Assembly (NCBI GenBank): GCA_903915625.1
Contig: CAIWTN010000091.1
Location: forward strand, 1-36,424
Direction: 5' to 3'
DNA length: 36,424 bases
From: an uncultured Pseudomonadota bacterium
GTDB taxonomy: Bacteria > Bdellovibrionota_B > Oligoflexia > Oligoflexales > CAIYRB01
Made by a program: the position numbers and the translations under genes. Positions 3,795 through 33,504 of this stretch are shown here, one piece after another (position 1 is the stretch's first letter; each line of letters starts with the position of its first letter). The notes beneath the pieces are model-generated. The model had not been told where the DNA came from and made no database searches. It saw nothing but the letters and a program-made list of their open reading frames with translations.

Positions 3795-5669
3795 CTATGC
3801 AGACAGCGGCAGTGAGAGAAGATCGGCTGGTGCGGAATTGTCGAACACTAAATAATAGAGAGCCTCAGCAGCGGAGTCATCACGAACTATTGCGTGGTTT
3901 TCCCGCAGCGAAAATTTGGTGAACTTCGACCTCTCAGTGGCTGATAAACTATAAAAGACTCGCTCTTGCGCAATTAGAACACTTCCTGTCATGCCACTCG
4001 GAAACATCACTTTTCGCATCGTCTCATAACGCGTCGCGAGAATAATCGACCGACCGTAAAGGTCGTAAGACCGAGTGCCACCTGAAGGATAAAATCCGGA
4101 GATACTGTCCATAGCAAGAGCAATGCAGCAGTAAAGCGGTTCGTGATACGCAAACTTCTCAACTTCTTCCTGGAAAATATCTAAGAATCGGATGGCTAGA
4201 CCTAATCCGTCTCTCGCCATTGATCCGCTGAGCGATTTGAATGGATATCCGACGCTGCAAATAAAGCCATCGCCCATTTCCTTGATACGAAAACCACTGG
4301 CCACCAGACGACTTGGGTCGTAGCCGTCGTCCATCGCCTCGTTACAGCGCCGAAAGACATTGCGAAGAAAATCCTTTGTCTTTTCGTGGTTGATCTTGCT
4401 ACTTCCAACAATGTCAAAACAAAGTACACAAGCCTCGCCGCTGCCCGTCGGCATCGTTAGTTCGAGTTCAATGCCGGTGCGTATTTGCTGTATTTGGTGG
4501 GGATAGAATACTTTTTCCATTTGTCGAAAAGCGTGCGTATTTTCGACCGTCACTTTTAACTCAGCTAACCGTGCCTTATATCCGACGGCAATAGCAAAAA
4601 ATACACTTTCGACCGCAAATGCTAGGTAGAGCGAGTAGCGCCACATCATCCCTACGGACGCCGCGTAGGCTAAGGCGTTGATCACATACCCGGCGGTGAG
4701 CAGGGTCCAACCAGCCATGAGGAAGGTAGCTGGTTTATAGCCTTGCCGATGGCGAATAATTGCTCCGATAATCGACGCACCGTAAAGTCCTATCTGCGGC
4801 ACGTACCAGGGAAAGTGCTGATTATATGCTATTTCAGGCGCCATTAATGCGGCCATTGTTACAAGCATGATTATCATGGAGTAAAAAATTCTGGGCGTAT
4901 AGGTACGCATAGATAACGCCGTTGTCATGAACAGAAATACTGCTAAGGCATTGATCAGCAGCATGCTGTTCCATAGCCACTGGGAGAAATTTGCCATGTG
5001 GAACGAGGCGACCGCAAGAATCCCGAGCATAGATAAGCTGTAAAGAATGTAGTAAAGGAAGTAGGACCTTTTATATATCAAAAGCCAGCCGAGATTCAGC
5101 AAAATCATCGCAATAGTGACGCCGTAAAGAAGTGCAATGAAATCTCTGCTCGAGAATATTTGTGCATGCATTTCAAATGCACTAGAAATCTTAAATCTAG
5201 ACTTCATCGTATGCGACTTGCAGTTTTTGAGATGAAGGTAAAAGTCATGCGAACCACGTGGTAGATTTAGTTCAAAAAGTGGCGCATAACTGCGAGAAGG
5301 CTTTAGTTGAGTTAAGGTTTGGTTGTGCCTCCAGAAAAGTTGTGCGTCGTCAATGGGGAGATTCCAACGATGCTCAAGAATTGCTGGAAAGGGCGTTTCA
5401 TTTTCAATGTGAAAACGCATCCAAACATCTGCAGGCTGCATACCAAAGGTGCTCTCTGTCGCGCGCTGCCAAGCTAAATTGCTATCTAACTCTGCTGAAC
5501 TAAAGTTTATCTCTCCTGTGGGATCGATTAAATACTCAACGTTATTAAACTCTAGAGGTAAATTTTCCGCAGTTACCTTTACGGATTCGGAGGCGACATT
5601 GGACAGGCCATCCGGCATAGCTAGCGCCAGACTAGAACAGAACAATGCGAATAGAGTCCTGAAGACCAT
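3795..5669 (-). CDS. 7TM-DISM membrane class III nucleotide cyclase
   Basis: Domain order (624 aa from ATG 5669): a signal peptide at 1-18 (MVFRTLFALFCSSLALAMP), a periplasmic DISMED2-like beta domain at about 35-165, seven hydrophobic helices at about 177-365, a short linker, and a class III adenylate/guanylate cyclase domain at about 405-600. Both metal-binding aspartates are present (CFDIVGSS, Asp419; KEMGDGF, Asp467), as is Lys463 in the adenine-selecting position. The segment normally reading GDxVNxAxR instead reads GRSIILATR, so the transition-state Asn appears to be Ile543. The likely reaction is ATP to cAMP, with activity uncertain. ATG 5669 is chosen because GAGGTGA precedes it and a signal peptide starts there; an upstream in-frame TTG at 5723 has no ribosome site. 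The gene sits between a SpoIIE-type phosphatase and a Ser/Thr kinase on the same strand. Confidence 0.88.
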   Translation of the reverse strand: MVFRTLFALFCSSLALAMPDGLSNVASESVKVTAENLPLEFNNVEYLIDPTGEINFSSAELDSNLAWQRATESTFGMQPADVWMRFHIENETPFPAILEHRWNLPIDDAQLFWRHNQTLTQLKPSRSYAPLFELNLPRGSHDFYLHLKNCKSHTMKSRFKISSAFEMHAQIFSSRDFIALLYGVTIAMILLNLGWLLIYKRSYFLYYILYSLSMLGILAVASFHMANFSQWLWNSMLLINALAVFLFMTTALSMRTYTPRIFYSMIIMLVTMAALMAPEIAYNQHFPWYVPQIGLYGASIIGAIIRHRQGYKPATFLMAGWTLLTAGYVINALAYAASVGMMWRYSLYLAFAVESVFFAIAVGYKARLAELKVTVENTHAFRQMEKVFYPHQIQQIRTGIELELTMPTGSGEACVLCFDIVGSSKINHEKTKDFLRNVFRRCNEAMDDGYDPSRLVASGFRIKEMGDGFICSVGYPFKSLSGSMARDGLGLAIRFLDIFQEEVEKFAYHEPLYCCIALAMDSISGFYPSGGTRSYDLYGRSIILATRYETMRKVMFPSGMTGSVLIAQERVFYSLSATERSKFTKFSLRENHAIVRDDSAAEALYYLVFDNSAPADLLSLPLSA

Positions 5670-5848
5670 GAATGGGCTCACCTCACGTGGTATATCGACG
5701 CGAGGAGGGACTTTATTAGCCAAAAACTTTGAAGACGGCTCAAATCAGGTTGGGAAAAAAGCAAACTCGTCAGAAAAAACGCTTAATAATTGAACCCAAG
5801 GATTAGCTTACAGATCTGGGATGGCCTAGTCACGCGGTAGTTGGATGG

Positions 5849-20519: not shown

Positions 20520-22412
20520 CTACCGTTGGATCGAGCATTTGCGATCTTTCATGTCGACCGTAAGCTCGTCCGGCGTTAGCCATGAAGTGGACCTGGGATT
20601 AAAACTACATTTAAACTCTCGCTCATGATCGCTGCTTGGTGTCACCTTCACTTCATAATTTGGTCCAAGTCGCAGGTCCTTAGCCAAAATCGGCTCGCGT
20701 TGATTAGCTTTGAAGTTGGACCGGAAATAGCCAGAATTGATACTGACAACAGCGTTTTTATTCATTCCTTTTACAAAAATTTTCACCGCCGCTACCGCGC
20801 CTTCTGGCCTTAGTACGATGTCATCTTTGATCTGGCGTTCGCCACCTTTCACCGTGAATTTGTGCCGTACCGGCGCAAATCCGGCGCGGGATATCAGCAG
20901 TGTGTGAGGACCCGGTGGCAAATGCAGTTCGTAGAATTTGTTGGCTGTCGTATCGACGTAGTGACTACCTTCGATGGGCTTGTCACCAACAGTTAGGCGA
21001 ACAAACCTGGGTTGCGTTCTGATTTGCAACGTCGCTAGTCGGTACTGCGCGGTAAGGCTAGTGTATGCCCTGGCGCCGACAAAAAATAATGCTGCTGCAA
21101 ATAAGATCGCTATCAAAGGCGCAGCGAAGCTTGGTTTGCGTGATCTGCGGAATAGTGGGCTGCCACCATGTACTGGGTTATTAACTTGCCGCGGCGCGCC
21201 AGCGCGAGCGGGCGCAGCAGCATTTGGTCTGACCAGGCCCGGCGATACCTTCAGGGAGTTCGGGAGTAGACTCTTGCCAGTACCCGACACGGGCTGAGGT
21301 AACTGACTCCGAACGGCAAACCCGGGTGAGCTCTTCCCATCAAATTCAATGTCGCGCGGCCGTCCTTGGTCTGAGTTGTTACCATCGGCACTAGGGGCGA
21401 GTGGTGTCGTGGAGCTGGTGTTGGTTTTGCGTCCAGGCCTTAAATTGGTCTCGGTCAGGGTCCGCTTAATTTCGGCCGCTGATTCGGTCCGGCGATTTTC
21501 CATAACTTTCTTGAGGAAATCTCCGAGGTCCTCGGGAGTAAATTCGGGATGGCGTCGGCTCATGTAGCGACGCAGTTCTTTCTCTAGGTCGGCAGCGGTG
21601 CGGTAACGTTTTTTCGGGTCACGAGCTAGACCTTTCTTAATGATCGCATCAAGCTCTTCATCCACTTCCGGATTTAGTTGGCGTAGTTCAACATCGATAC
21701 GGCAGTTTTTAACTTTGGTAATGGTGTCGACTTCGTTCTCACCCTGAAACAGTCGACGCATCGCCAACATTTCCCAAAAGACAATCGATAGGGCAAAGAT
21801 ATCTGTGCGCTGATCCACTGGTTTGGCGCTGATCTGCTCGGGACTCATGTAAGAATACTTGCCTTTGACGACGCCAGGTCTCGTGTCGGTCAACTTACTT
21901 TCAGCATCGGCGATGCCAAAGTCCGTCACCTTAATCTCGCCCTCAAAGCTCACCAGGATGTTCTGTGGCGAGATATCGCGGTGGACAATGCCCAGAGGTT
22001 GTTGCGAAATCTCGTCAGTTTTAGTGTGGGCATAGTGGAGACCGCGGGCGCATTCGGCAATGATGAAACAGGCCATCGGCACTGGCAGTTTCTGGCGACT
22101 TTGCTCTACGGCATGAAGCAGGGTCCGCACATCGGCGCCATCGACGAACTCCATAATGATTGCATAGGAGCCATCAACTTGTTCAAAGTCTTCGACCCGT
22201 ACAATATTACCGTGCTGTAGGCGCTTACAGATGTGCGCCTCGTCGCGGAACATTTGCATGAATTCTTGGTCGGTAGAATAATGAGGAAGGATCCGCTTGA
22301 TCGCTACCAGTCGCTGGAAGCCATCTTCGCCTACTTGTTTGCCGAGAAAAATCTCCGCCATACCGCCGCGGGCGATTTTTTTAGCTAGAATGTAGCGCGA
22401 CATTTCGCTCAT
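20520..22412 (-). CDS. Membrane Ser/Thr protein kinase with PEGA ectodomain
   Basis: A 630-residue Hanks-type kinase: glycine loop ARGGMAEIFLG (14-24), AIKRIL with Lys39, HRDISPQN with catalytic Asp146, DFG (164-166) and MSPEQ. Position 148, usually Lys in bacterial HRDxKPxN, is Ser, a variant common in myxobacterial-type kinases and not expected to abolish activity. The kinase domain ends near 285. A disordered Pro/Ser/Arg-rich linker leads to one membrane helix (429-449), then an outer PEGA domain (about 458-536: TQPRFVRLTVG, LPPGPHTLLISRAGF) and a C-terminal Cys-containing segment. It is 9 bp upstream of the PEGA gene that resembles its own ectodomain. Two ATGs (residues 1 and 4) are possible starts. 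Confidence 0.92.
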   Translation of the reverse strand: MSEMSRYILAKKIARGGMAEIFLGKQVGEDGFQRLVAIKRILPHYSTDQEFMQMFRDEAHICKRLQHGNIVRVEDFEQVDGSYAIIMEFVDGADVRTLLHAVEQSRQKLPVPMACFIIAECARGLHYAHTKTDEISQQPLGIVHRDISPQNILVSFEGEIKVTDFGIADAESKLTDTRPGVVKGKYSYMSPEQISAKPVDQRTDIFALSIVFWEMLAMRRLFQGENEVDTITKVKNCRIDVELRQLNPEVDEELDAIIKKGLARDPKKRYRTAADLEKELRRYMSRRHPEFTPEDLGDFLKKVMENRRTESAAEIKRTLTETNLRPGRKTNTSSTTPLAPSADGNNSDQGRPRDIEFDGKSSPGFAVRSQLPQPVSGTGKSLLPNSLKVSPGLVRPNAAAPARAGAPRQVNNPVHGGSPLFRRSRKPSFAAPLIAILFAAALFFVGARAYTSLTAQYRLATLQIRTQPRFVRLTVGDKPIEGSHYVDTTANKFYELHLPPGPHTLLISRAGFAPVRHKFTVKGGERQIKDDIVLRPEGAVAAVKIFVKGMNKNAVVSINSGYFRSNFKANQREPILAKDLRLGPNYEVKVTPSSDHEREFKCSFNPRSTSWLTPDELTVDMKDRKCSIQR

Positions 22413-25763: not shown

Positions 25764-26447
25764 CTACTTAACTGGACCATCGAAGTACTGGTTGGGAAAC
25801 TGTTCCGACTTCACTGTAAAGTGCCACCACTCTTTCGCATAATTTTCAAAACCTACGCGCTCTAAAGCTGATGAGAGCAGAGCGCGATTTGCGCGTGCCT
25901 GCTGCGATATACTTGAGTTTGCTGTGTGCGATATGGGGTCGAAGAAGTCGAACGGAGCCCCCATGTCCAGGCCCTCAATCCCGATATCAACGGTACTGCC
26001 ACGGCTGTGACCTGATTTATGAGATATATATCCATCGCGAAAAAGGGTCTCTTTGCCCACTTTGGGATAGTGACTTGCCTTCATCTTGGTATCGTTCAGG
26101 TCACTGGCCCAACGTGCGAACTCTTTGACAGCTTGAGTGGGGCGGTAGCAATCGTAGACTACAAGTCGAAGCTGAAATTTATTCAGCCAATCTTGTGCCA
26201 AACGCAAGCTGTTTGCCGCCTTTCGCGTTAGTAGGCACTTGGCGGCGAGATATCCAGGAACAGGTTTGCCAGTGAAGTTGTCACTGCCGTAGTAGCGCAT
26301 ATCGACTTTAATATCCGGCGCAATCTCGGCGAGCGAGACAAAGTCTCGCGGCAGTTCTTCGGCCGAGCTCGGAGCTGCACACGCGATGACTCCTAAGCTT
26401 AGTGCTAGGATGTTGCTAGTGTCGAAAAGTTTGTGAACACCTAACAC
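25764..26447 (-). CDS. VanX/DdpX-type D-Ala-D-Ala dipeptidase (M15D)
   Basis: A 227-residue zinc peptidase of family M15. Zinc and catalytic residues are present: SGHSRGSTVD with His147 and Asp154, EWWHF with Glu206 and His209, and VYDCYRP with Arg102. This matches VanX/DdpX D-alanyl-D-alanine dipeptidases, which cleave the cell-wall dipeptide. The N-terminus carries an export signal (NILALSLGVIACAAPSSA); VIAC fits a lipobox, so it may be a lipoprotein rather than freely periplasmic. Export argues for wall recycling or nutrition rather than cytosolic VanX-type vancomycin resistance, and no vanH/vanA genes are nearby. The start is GTG 26447 with GAGGAG five bases upstream. It lies 14 bp after the alpha/beta-hydrolase gene. 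Confidence 0.9.
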   Translation of the reverse strand: MLGVHKLFDTSNILALSLGVIACAAPSSAEELPRDFVSLAEIAPDIKVDMRYYGSDNFTGKPVPGYLAAKCLLTRKAANSLRLAQDWLNKFQLRLVVYDCYRPTQAVKEFARWASDLNDTKMKASHYPKVGKETLFRDGYISHKSGHSRGSTVDIGIEGLDMGAPFDFFDPISHTANSSISQQARANRALLSSALERVGFENYAKEWWHFTVKSEQFPNQYFDGPVK

Positions 26448-29106: not shown

Positions 29107-31428
29107 ATGCGCTTTAGTTTTCTAATTCTGACGCTACTGAGTGCGCTTGCTGCGGCGGCGGCTACTCGCGCGGATGCTTTTGGAAATTTGCCGTCACAGA
29201 TGTCCGCCGATCTTGCGGCTGTTAAAGTGACGCCTCCGACGGTGACGCCTCCAGTCGTGGTCAGTGATTCCGCTGATTTTCATGCTAGTGTGTTTCCTCA
29301 TGTAGACAAGCTGGATGAGTCTGCCGCCGGAATCGTGCCTGTCGATCAGATCGCAGCGCCAAAGCTCGCTAACTACTTTGTACATTCCAATGTCACTCAG
29401 TCTGTCAATACGGATCATCATGTCTGGTACCGGTTTAAGGTGTTAAATCCGGGCAGGGCAGAACTGCCGCTTGTATTTTATAGCTATTTTTCGTTTCGCT
29501 CGATTTTAGTCGTAGTCGCTGATGATGCGGGTCACGAACTTTCGCGGAGCGAGGTCGGTTACGGCACTATTGTGGACCAAGGCAGGGGATGGATATTCCC
29601 GGCTATAAATCTAAGTTTTCCGGTAGGTGCTTCCTCGGTATATTTTGGAGTCGATAGTTTTAAAGACCCATCTAAGATCGACTTTCAACTGACACAGCCA
29701 GATACTTTCGATCGGATGAACCGAGAGTACATTGCAATCGCAGCTTCATTCTTGGTATCTGCGCTGGCTTTGATTGTGTTCAATGCGATCATGATTTTGA
29801 GTCTGCGCTCGCTGGTTTACTTTTACTTCATCACAACCGTCCTTGGGCTACTCCTTCTCCAAGCGTGCACGAGTGGAGCACTTGGGTTTTTTAACTTAGA
29901 ACTATTAGCCTCTTCGGCACGCATTTGGATCCATTCTTTAAATATCGTGATTATTAGTACCGGCATGTTCGCTTTTAATTACTTTGAAGCGAGGCGTGTC
30001 GACCATCCATGGCTTTATGGAATTCACTATTTAGCTGCTGGGATTACCCTCGCCACAGCAGTCGGATACCCCTGGTTGTGGGAGTATTCTTTAGCGCTGG
30101 TAGCACTCAGTGTTGTACTGCTTCTAGGAGTTATTTTTGGAGTTTTATTGCATGCTTCCCGAACGATGACGAAAAAGGTTTGGCTTTTTGGGGTCTGTGC
30201 AAGCCCACTGATATTGTTTGGTTTTTCCGAGTTGGCCAGATTTTATCTGGAGTCAGAAAATGGTTCGAGTAATCTTTATTTTTGGGGCTGTTCGTTAGGT
30301 TCCTTGTTTCTTTTTTCCATCTTAAATGCTTTAGAAATCGGGCGGAACGACAAGAGGAGCAGGGCCCTTGCTGCAAGCCTAAGCGCAGTATTTCCACCCT
30401 TTCAAGTCCAGAAAATCGTCTCTGAAGGTCTACAGCTAAACAAGACTCCCAGTGTTAGTTATGTAAGCATCATGTTTGTCGACATCGTGGGCTACACCTT
30501 AGCTGCGCGCGGTCGCAAGCCTGATGAGTCGTTCCAGTTTTTAAAAGACACTTTGGGCTTTATTGGCAAGATTGTGCATCAGTATGGTGGCATCATCGAT
30601 AAAAGTCTGGGAGATGGATGTCTGTGCTTTTTTGGCTACGATATTTCCGGTAAGGAGGTCGTTGGTCACGAGACCACTGCGGTCGCATGTGCACTAGAAA
30701 TTCAACGCAAGATGGTCGACTACATCAACTCAATCAGCGCTGAAACCAAAGATATTTTCCCCCTGCGCATTGGAGTCAATAGTGCTTCAGTCTGCATCGG
30801 TAATATGGGTGACGAGCACCGTGTTGACTTCACGCTACACGGGGATGGTGTGAGCATGGCCAAGCGATTTGAGTCGGCCTGCGAGCCATTTAAAGTCACT
30901 ATTGGTCAATCGACATATCAGGCTCTAGATGAGGGCATGCGGAGTTCAGAGAAGTTTTATCAGCGACTAATACCGATAAAAAACGCAAATAATCTCACCG
31001 AAAGTTATGAATGCAACCCATTTGAGAAGGCTGCGGAATCGATTGATAAGGCGCGCGCAAAATATTGGCAGCGGATTGGAGTGCAGAGGCTGGAGCAGCG
31101 ATTTTCTTCAAATAAGAACTTATTTGTAATTCAGTCTGCCCACGGCGAGATGCAGCTGCAGAATTTCTCACTAAATGGATTTTGCGTTAGATCGCCAGTT
31201 TTTCTTGGTAAAGGGGCTGAGTTTACTTTGGACCTTTCTGGGGTGATTCCAGAGCATCAGATGAAATTCTTGGGAATCGTCAGCGTCCAGGTGCGCTGGG
31301 GAGTGCCTGAGGGTGACGACGAGTTTATCCTGGGAACCATGATTAATGGGCTAAGTGATCAACACCGCGAACTCATCTTTAATAGCCTCTTGGTCGTGGC
31401 GCAGAGGCAGCTATCTATCGCGGGATGA
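29107..31428 (+). CDS. 7TM-DISM class III nucleotide cyclase with C-terminal PilZ domain
   Basis: 773 residues from ATG 29107 (AAGGA nine bases upstream; signal peptide MRFSFLILTLLSALAAAAA). Order: periplasmic DISMED2-like domain (about 50-200), seven membrane helices (about 205-410), class III cyclase (about 440-625), and a PilZ-like domain (about 655-773). The cyclase has metal aspartates Asp459 (FVDIVGY) and Asp503 (SLGDGCL) and the adenine-selecting Lys499. In HGDGVSMAKR the usual transition-state Asn is Ser. The PilZ part shows RxxxR (RLEQR, 661-665) and NxSxxG (NFSLNG, 686-691), the two c-di-GMP-binding motifs. It likely makes cAMP under combined periplasmic and c-di-GMP control. An upstream TTG (29065) was rejected. 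Confidence 0.88.
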   Translation: MRFSFLILTLLSALAAAAATRADAFGNLPSQMSADLAAVKVTPPTVTPPVVVSDSADFHASVFPHVDKLDESAAGIVPVDQIAAPKLANYFVHSNVTQSVNTDHHVWYRFKVLNPGRAELPLVFYSYFSFRSILVVVADDAGHELSRSEVGYGTIVDQGRGWIFPAINLSFPVGASSVYFGVDSFKDPSKIDFQLTQPDTFDRMNREYIAIAASFLVSALALIVFNAIMILSLRSLVYFYFITTVLGLLLLQACTSGALGFFNLELLASSARIWIHSLNIVIISTGMFAFNYFEARRVDHPWLYGIHYLAAGITLATAVGYPWLWEYSLALVALSVVLLLGVIFGVLLHASRTMTKKVWLFGVCASPLILFGFSELARFYLESENGSSNLYFWGCSLGSLFLFSILNALEIGRNDKRSRALAASLSAVFPPFQVQKIVSEGLQLNKTPSVSYVSIMFVDIVGYTLAARGRKPDESFQFLKDTLGFIGKIVHQYGGIIDKSLGDGCLCFFGYDISGKEVVGHETTAVACALEIQRKMVDYINSISAETKDIFPLRIGVNSASVCIGNMGDEHRVDFTLHGDGVSMAKRFESACEPFKVTIGQSTYQALDEGMRSSEKFYQRLIPIKNANNLTESYECNPFEKAAESIDKARAKYWQRIGVQRLEQRFSSNKNLFVIQSAHGEMQLQNFSLNGFCVRSPVFLGKGAEFTLDLSGVIPEHQMKFLGIVSVQVRWGVPEGDDEFILGTMINGLSDQHRELIFNSLLVVAQRQLSIAG

Positions 31429-31458: not shown

Positions 31459-32700
31459 TCAGTGAGCGGGAGTGCGGCCTATTAGTTTAAAGACGTGGAT
31501 TCGACTCTGGTCGTAATCAGGAACGAACAGGTGCGGGTTGCCATCGCTGTCGGGTGCACCAAGTGCCATGTGGCCTATAGTAGATCCCGCATCTAAAAGC
31601 ACTTGCTCAGTGTAGGTCCAGTCTTTAGGATCCTCGCTGTTTGGCTTTAGCCAGTGAGCTTTACCGGAGCCATCGCCGGCAACAAAAATATCAGACTTGC
31701 GACCTGGGTGACTCCAAGTCAGAGCAGAGCCAGGGGATGCCGCTGCTGGGCTCGTTACTTTAGTGGCGATTCCACCTAGGATTGTGTGGCGTGTCCATGC
31801 GCCATGTTGCCAATCATCAGGAATTTCATATGCAAATACTGCAGCCTTTTCCTTTGCCTCATGGTTAGTGACTAACAAGTCTTCGTGCCCATCGCCATTT
31901 AGGTCGGTAAGAGATACATCAAATGCTGCACCAAGTGTCTCGTCGATGATTCGCTGGGCCCATTGCCCATCGTGGCGCCAGTGCATACTAAGCCGCTTGT
32001 TGAAAAACTCCGTGGCAATAATTGCTAAATCATCATGATGTTCCGTGACGACAAAGTTGACGTCTGGGCCGGAAGCTATGAGGTGTTCGGTCCAGATTTT
32101 TTGGGATTTATCGAGCGGTTGTTCTATCCAGAGTAATTCACCTGCGTGCTGTCCCAGCCACCCAAGTTTAGCTCGAGCAGTGATGATGTCGAGGCGACCA
32201 TCGTTATTTACATCGGCCCAAACAGCCTGATGGTAGAAAAAGTCTGTCTTCGGCTTGACTATAGATTGCGTGTCACCTGTTGCCACATCGACTAATGAAA
32301 TAGTCCCTGTTTTGTATCCAGGAATTAAAAAACCAGACCCGACCACTACTTTCCCAGGTCCTAAGACGGATTCAGGGACTGCGGTAACGTGGTTGGGCCA
32401 AGCGATACTTCTGCTGATTGTGTGTAGTTTCTTATAAGAAGCTTGTAACCAGTCCGCAGAATTGGTTAGCAATGGCATTGAGTACACTCGGCCGGGGGCA
32501 AACATGGCGAAGCTAGATATCATCAGCTGTTCCATGCCATCGTCACTTGGCAGTAAATGTAAAAACGCTGGTTTGCTGACATAAAGATCGCCCAAAGGCA
32601 CAGCATGCACTTCGGATTCACCATACGCCTGCGGTATGATCATATTGAATGCGGCCACCACTATGGCGACTACAGATAATTCTGCTAGTTTAAGTCGCAT
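31459..32700 (-). CDS. Secreted FG-GAP/VCBS-like beta-propeller protein
   Basis: A 413-residue protein with a signal peptide (LSVVAIVVAAFNMIIPQAYG). The body is a repeat-rich beta protein with Ca-binding FG-GAP/VCBS-type loops: ADVNNDGRLDII and TDLNGDGHEDLL, plus a degenerate APDSDGNPHLF, separated by about 60-100 residues. Such repeats form beta-propellers outside the cytoplasm and often bind ligands or surfaces. No catalytic domain is recognised. The start ATG has GGAG five bases upstream. A strong terminator follows the stop. Confidence 0.8.
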   Translation of the reverse strand: MRLKLAELSVVAIVVAAFNMIIPQAYGESEVHAVPLGDLYVSKPAFLHLLPSDDGMEQLMISSFAMFAPGRVYSMPLLTNSADWLQASYKKLHTISRSIAWPNHVTAVPESVLGPGKVVVGSGFLIPGYKTGTISLVDVATGDTQSIVKPKTDFFYHQAVWADVNNDGRLDIITARAKLGWLGQHAGELLWIEQPLDKSQKIWTEHLIASGPDVNFVVTEHHDDLAIIATEFFNKRLSMHWRHDGQWAQRIIDETLGAAFDVSLTDLNGDGHEDLLVTNHEAKEKAAVFAYEIPDDWQHGAWTRHTILGGIATKVTSPAAASPGSALTWSHPGRKSDIFVAGDGSGKAHWLKPNSEDPKDWTYTEQVLLDAGSTIGHMALGAPDSDGNPHLFVPDYDQSRIHVFKLIGRTPAH

Positions 32701-32814: not shown

Positions 32815-33504
32815 TTATTGTATTTCCAAAGTTAGCGACTGTTCAGCGCCGCCTCTGCGAAAGCTAACATCGGCACTTTTGGCATCTTTCATGCCCTGGA
32901 GTAGTTTGATGGTCATGGCGACGTCGGAGAGTTTGTGACCGTTTACCGTGGTCACGATGTCACCATCTTTGAATCCTACTTTGTCGTAAATGCTTCCAGC
33001 ATCGATGGCTAATAATTTAAATCCTGATAGCCGCCCTTCCTCATAATAGGGCATCGCAGCCGCTTGCATTAAGACACGGCTCAGTTGACGGCTAGTTAAC
33101 TCTTCTCTCAGTTCAGAGCTTATGCGGACGGTGGATCCGACCCGTTCTACGCCCTTAGACAAATGGTCGATATCCGCATAGGCCGTCGGCGAACTAGAGT
33201 CACTGCTCGCCGTGTCTTCGCCTACGCGGACTTTGTTTTCACGGCCGTCTATGACGAAATAAACGTAATCTCTAGAAATGCTAGTAATTTGTGTACCAGG
33301 TCCGAGCTCCTGACCGGAGCGTGCGGCGAAGGTTGTGCCCGAGGCCTCAGACTTAATTAGGGCAATGCCGGCCTTGTGGTCTCCCGAGGCAATGACTCCG
33401 AGTACCAAAAAGTTTGATTTTGCTGCCAATCTCATTTGAGTTGGAAAGTTCCACGTAAGGCAAACGAGCGATACCAGTAGATTTTGAACTGCGGTCTTCC
33501 GCAT
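32815..33504 (-). CDS. GspC-like PDZ protein
   Basis: A 229-residue protein. An N-terminal hydrophobic segment (residues 6-22) is followed by a GspC-like homology-region domain (about 31-96: NFLVLGVIASGDHKAGIALI, then GPGTQITSISRDYVYFVIDG), a Ser-rich linker, and a PDZ domain (about 148-229: GFKLLAIDAGSIYDKVGFKD, GDIVTTVNGHKL). The order matches GspC, the inner-membrane clamp that connects a type II secretion system to its outer-membrane secretin. No other Gsp gene is in the window, so it is an orphan here. The ATG has GAGG five bases upstream. Specific role in secretion is inferred. Confidence 0.8.
   Translation of the reverse strand: MRKTAVQNLLVSLVCLTWNFPTQMRLAAKSNFLVLGVIASGDHKAGIALIKSEASGTTFAARSGQELGPGTQITSISRDYVYFVIDGRENKVRVGEDTASSDSSSPTAYADIDHLSKGVERVGSTVRISSELREELTSRQLSRVLMQAAAMPYYEEGRLSGFKLLAIDAGSIYDKVGFKDGDIVTTVNGHKLSDVAMTIKLLQGMKDAKSADVSFRRGGAEQSLTLEIQ

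Follow-up and report, generated by a model that had tools for sequence, protein, structure and literature searches.

Single polypeptides that link a cyclic mononucleotide to c-di-GMP have been described, with c-di-GMP metabolism as the regulated end. In Xanthomonas campestris, the cNMP-GGDEF protein XC_0249 forms such a single-chain link, in which cGMP controls c-di-GMP synthesis (PMC3770947), and in Bdellovibrio the cAMP-sensing EAL protein Bd1971 places c-di-GMP breakdown under the control of cAMP (PMC6717892). A 2024 review describes cross-regulation between c-di-GMP and cAMP as mostly transcriptional and poorly understood (PMC11139211). The PilZ receptors VCA0042, YcgR, Alg44 and BcsA share a barrel fold and carry two c-di-GMP motifs, RxxxR and (D/N)xSxxG (PMC7288161). 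Class III cyclases of known structure include CyaB from P. aeruginosa (3r5g) and Cya2 from Synechocystis (2w01).

Here, we describe a gene in the window (the whole 36,424-nucleotide stretch of DNA that we analysed) whose product combines elements of these systems in one chain. It has the membrane module of 7TMR-DISM receptors but differs from them in its output, a class III cyclase plus PilZ. Its cyclase has the same catalytic fold and the same metal, purine and Arg residues as CyaB and Cya2, whose structural entries are without PilZ, and it differs from them also in carrying Ser at the Asn position. Its PilZ domain has the barrel and both motifs of the known receptors but is fused to a mononucleotide cyclase, whereas the partner of the PilZ domain in BcsA is cellulose synthase. 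The direction of control that we propose, from c-di-GMP to cAMP, is opposite to that of XC_0249 and Bd1971. In a search of openly accessible literature, no publication described a class III cyclase fused to PilZ, although such a fusion may have been noticed earlier, for example in a domain-architecture table, and the same search found nothing on an adenylate cyclase of Oligoflexus. For CHASE2, PilZ and cyclase together, the matching publications, in the portions available, dealt with cyanobacterial c-di-GMP enzymes and reported no fusion.

A sensor, a cyclase and a PilZ domain in one chain

The gene is a single open frame of 773 codons (Table 1), and its ATG start at 29107 is the same in an orthologue of 91% identity from a second genome. 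The sequence-only reading had proposed that one chain joins a DISM sensor to a class III cyclase, with PilZ at the C-terminus, and Pfam, the relatives and the structural model together support this. Guanylate_cyc matched residues 449-611 (E 3e-21, 76.2 bits against a curated cut-off of 21.9), and 7TMR-DISM_7TM matched residues 215-386 at 28.3 bits (E 2e-6), just under its cut-off of 29. Both models match all 53 full-length DISM relatives. A DISMED2-type periplasmic domain was matched in 39 of the 53 and not in the query protein itself, for which an NCBIfam scan also returned no equivalog. The full-length model had an overall pTM of 0.57. In the alignment, every residue position given by the sequence-only reading proved exact (D459, D503, K499, D574, S583, R587, R661/R665 and N686/S688/G691), and these cyclase and PilZ residues are conserved above chance across relatives.

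Table 1. Features of the cyclase-PilZ gene and its product, in window coordinates.
Feature	Position	Strand	Basis
7TMR-DISM / class III cyclase / PilZ fusion protein, 773 aa	29107..31428	+	ORF, Pfam, orthologues at 91% and 50%
Predicted signal peptide, residues 1-24 (MRFSFLILTLLSALAAAAATRADA)	29107..29178	+	sequence reading (inferred); model helix 2-25
Predicted periplasmic beta-rich domain, residues 25-197, 7TMR-DISMED2 position	29179..29697	+	model strands
Seven-helix membrane region, residues 198-410	29698..30336	+	Pfam 7TMR-DISM_7TM at 215-386; model helices
Linker/signalling helix N-terminal to cyclase, residues 411-447	30337..30447	+	model helices 389-425, 431-440
Class III cyclase domain, residues 449-636	30451..31014	+	Pfam; closest solved CyaB 3r5g, Cya2 2w01
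Metal Asp D459	30481..30483	+	alignment
Purine-selecting Lys K499	30601..30603	+	alignment
Metal Asp D503	30613..30615	+	alignment
Purine-selecting Asp D574	30826..30828	+	alignment
Ser583, position of transition-state Asn	30853..30855	+	alignment
Transition-state Arg R587	30865..30867	+	alignment
PilZ domain, residues 658-772	31078..31422	+	relatives' Pfam matches, profile alignment, model, fold search
RxxxR motif R661-R665 (RLEQR)	31087..31101	+	sequence, alignment
(D/N)xSxxG motif N686-G691 (NFSLNG)	31162..31179	+	sequence, alignment

Comparison with the 91% orthologue, a single sequence pair analysed by the Nei-Gojobori method, gave dN/dS values of 0.22 for the periplasmic part, 0.27 for the 7TM region, 0.022 for the linker helix (391-447), 0.061 for the cyclase and 0.062 for PilZ. 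Purifying selection is strong on the output and PilZ parts, and the sensing parts evolve faster.

A large family within the lineage

Relatives were gathered from 58 genomes, all of the same phylum. The source genome (4.4 Mb in 252 contigs, 96% complete) encodes 15 sensor-cyclase-PilZ proteins. Pfam identifies 18 class III cyclase domains in it, 15 of which lie in these proteins. Other members of the order have CHASE2 as the sensor in place of DISM, and CHASE2-cyclase-PilZ is an order-wide form in which both PilZ motifs are usually intact. A cyclase-PilZ profile matched 54 of the 58 genomes at E 1e-20 or better; this survey covered one phylum, and other phyla may carry the fusion too. Matches spanning both domains occurred across many families of the phylum, and some genomes had cyclase-only matches. 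Among plasmid records, 585 matched the cyclase and none spanned 80% of the cyclase-PilZ query. The query protein is a member of a large lineage family, not a single oddity.

Two further loci show variants of this layout. At one (L071, G003:C58), four DISM-cyclase-PilZ genes form an array, and in two of them the catalytic site has decayed. The other, in the window at 3795-5723 on the reverse strand, encodes a second 7TMR-DISM protein (DISMED2 plus 7TM) in which the class III cyclase domain is weak, PilZ is absent and the Asn position is apparently Ile ('RSIILATRYE').

The PilZ domain

Against the full-length protein, the Pfam PilZ model reached E 0.011 over residues 681-759, under its cut-off, and against the isolated C-terminus it reached E 5e-4 and 20.8 bits, still short of the required 22.5. 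A lone single-sequence match of this kind is too weak to serve as proof, and relatives and structure were used instead. PilZ was matched at E 0.01 or better in C-terminal fragments of 70 of 97 relatives, and several paralogues in the same genome scored above the cut-off in a genome scan. A profile of the C-terminal fragments aligned to c-di-GMP-bound VCA0042 (3kyg) across RxxxR and DxSxxG. The AlphaFold model of residues 632-773 formed a barrel (mean pLDDT 85), and the best 38 Foldseek matches in the PDB were all PilZ domains, with probabilities of 0.98-1.00 and modest E-values (1.2e-3 and weaker). The PilZ assignment of the sequence-only reading is thus upheld by profile search and structure prediction alike, and we regard the fold as established with very high confidence.

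R661, R665, N686, S688 and G691 are all in place in the query protein, and S688 and G691 are invariant in the 53 relatives. Because both motifs are intact, binding of c-di-GMP by this domain is plausible, and on the strength of these residues we consider it likely. The source genome encodes four GGDEF proteins, one EAL protein and five cNMP-binding proteins, which makes the presence of both messengers in the cell plausible.

An alternative is that the PilZ domain is real but acts structurally or in protein-protein contacts, such as dimerisation or polar or pilus targeting, and exerts no c-di-GMP control over the cyclase. Relatives of the tandem DISM type retain (D/N)xSxxG in 52 of 53 sequences and RxxxR in just 9 of 53, the first Arg being mostly gone, and in the query clade both motifs occur in 4 of 12 sequences, namely the query protein and its three nearest relatives; these counts, like that for CHASE2 below, include orthologues and are not independent events. 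Most tandem paralogues keep the PilZ fold yet lose the first Arg. Retention of the domain thus does not require canonical c-di-GMP binding, which makes this a serious rival. However, the query protein and its relatives at 50% and 64% identity retain every ligand residue, both motifs are kept in 35 of 46 CHASE2-type relatives, and the genome encodes DGC, PDE and other PilZ proteins (about 11 of the latter outside the cyclase-PilZ family). We therefore judge a PilZ domain without a ligand role to be unlikely, though to be taken seriously.

Tandem pairs

Six head-to-tail pairs, whose members are separated by 0-81 bases, account for twelve of the 15 copies in the source genome. Across 17 complete pairs from the genus, the upstream copies group in one clade and the downstream copies in another (support 0.78 and 0.96), and the distance matrices of the two sets correlate (r 0.97, 0 of 5000 permutations); within the source genome alone the correlation was r 0.73 (2 of 720 permutations). 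Tandem partners co-evolve.

The transition-state Arg is missing from the upstream copy in 9 of the 17 pairs and from no downstream copy, and the second metal Asp is missing from three downstream copies, all with partners lacking the Arg, and from no upstream copy; counted as independent events, these come to about three losses of the Arg and one of the Asp. Polarised loss of this sort is what heterodimers with one active site predict, and we read the residue pattern as indicating that the tandem pairs probably form such heterodimers. Two unequal cyclase domains with a single active site are also found in the fungal RGC1/NeoR heterodimeric cyclases, as in mammalian tmAC (PMC12264004). These cyclases resemble the tandem pairs in design but are eukaryotic and without PilZ. 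The substrate of the tandem pairs is less certain, because they carry Arg at the position of the purine-selecting Lys.

Both losses coincide at L021, L114 and L119 (G000:C120 and its counterparts in two other genus genomes), where the upstream copy is without the Arg and the downstream copy without the second metal Asp, so that the two are complementary halves. At L120 (G004:C413), one tandem copy is present as two overlapping frames, an apparent frameshift. At L053 and L060 (G001:C103 and G002:C39), two query-clade genes stand divergently, 324 bases apart, and one member has Lys for the catalytic Arg.

As is probable for the tandem pairs, the query protein itself could depend for its activity on forming a heterodimer with another paralogue. 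The co-evolution of the six pairs and the polarity of their residue losses make this conceivable, as does the divergent query-clade pair, in which the R to K change in one member is accompanied at L060, in one genome, by replacement of the second metal Asp with Gly in the other. But the query gene, which groups in the tree with its 50% relative (L064) with full support, stands alone, without a paralogue next to it, and its product has both metal Asps and the Arg. We consider an obligate heterodimer improbable here; the protein would probably act as a lone copy, a homodimer with two equivalent sites that each carry Ser for Asn.

The cyclase domain

In the alignment the query protein has both metal Asps, the purine-selecting Lys and Asp, and R587; at the Asn position it has S583. 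The sequence-only reading had pointed to this Ser, which is indeed present, but it is not a family feature: Ser583 occurs only in the query protein and its 91% orthologue, and the 50% and 64% relatives carry Asn, which rules out a family-wide trait. On the alignment, Ser583 is a recent, clade-specific change, and it may reduce catalysis.

If that effect were strong, the cyclase would be weak or dead, and the protein would serve as a receptor or scaffold that reads the signal and c-di-GMP while making little cAMP. The Asn is substituted (by V, S or F) in 10 of the 12 query-clade sequences, two of which also have R to K. Set against this, the protein retains both metal Asps along with the Lys, Asp and Arg, the low cyclase dN/dS noted above points to constraint, and Ser is polar and may partly stand in for Asn. 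A weak or dead cyclase seems to us slightly less probable still than an obligate heterodimer.

From its residues, the domain is predicted to make cAMP. A product other than cAMP, such as cGMP, is the least probable of the alternatives, since K499 and D574 form the Lys/Asp combination with which class III cyclases usually select adenine, even though the guanylyl cyclase Cya2 is among the closest structures and the tandem paralogues have Arg for that Lys.

We also considered a Pycsar defence cyclase and set it aside: the PycC models cover the generic cyclase domain only, and a scan of three neighbours gave no PADLOC match.

Gene neighbourhood

The neighbours described here all lie on the reverse strand. 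Convergent with the cyclase gene is a gene for an FG-GAP-repeat protein (31459-32700), an arrangement seen in 4 of 4 orthologue-bearing genomes, and beyond it lies a gene for a GspC-like (type II secretion) protein with a PDZ domain (32815-33504). On the other side are a VanX-like D-Ala-D-Ala dipeptidase (25764-26447), which is probably a cell-wall recycling enzyme because its 195.8 bits fall under the NCBIfam cut-off of 320 for true VanX, and a Ser/Thr protein kinase (20520-22412) whose C-terminus weakly matches a carboxypeptidase-regulatory-like domain.

Discussion

We read the protein, with modest confidence, as a receptor cyclase whose cAMP output would be set by an outside signal and by c-di-GMP acting on PilZ. 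The periplasmic/7TM (7TMR-DISM) module would pick up an outside or membrane signal, which would travel via the helix to the class III cyclase dimer. PilZ would take c-di-GMP at R661/R665 and N686/S688/G691 and thereby alter the activity of this dimer, so that c-di-GMP would directly set cAMP output jointly with the 7TM sensor. We give such an effect of c-di-GMP on the cyclase a little better than an even chance. By analogy with BcsA, one guess is that c-di-GMP would release autoinhibition.

A broader suggestion, which we offer tentatively and regard as rather doubtful, is that membrane-bound cAMP synthesis in the phylum is mostly under direct c-di-GMP gating through cyclase-PilZ fusions, and that one branch has expanded into many obligate one-site heterodimeric receptor pairs.

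If this reading of the receptor and its family is true, c-di-GMP would act on cAMP within one membrane receptor, the reverse of XC_0249 and Bd1971, and the lineage would use this design in bulk. The tandem pairs would offer bacterial models for heterodimeric membrane cyclases, and the natural range of intact and lost PilZ arginines would be a ready test series.
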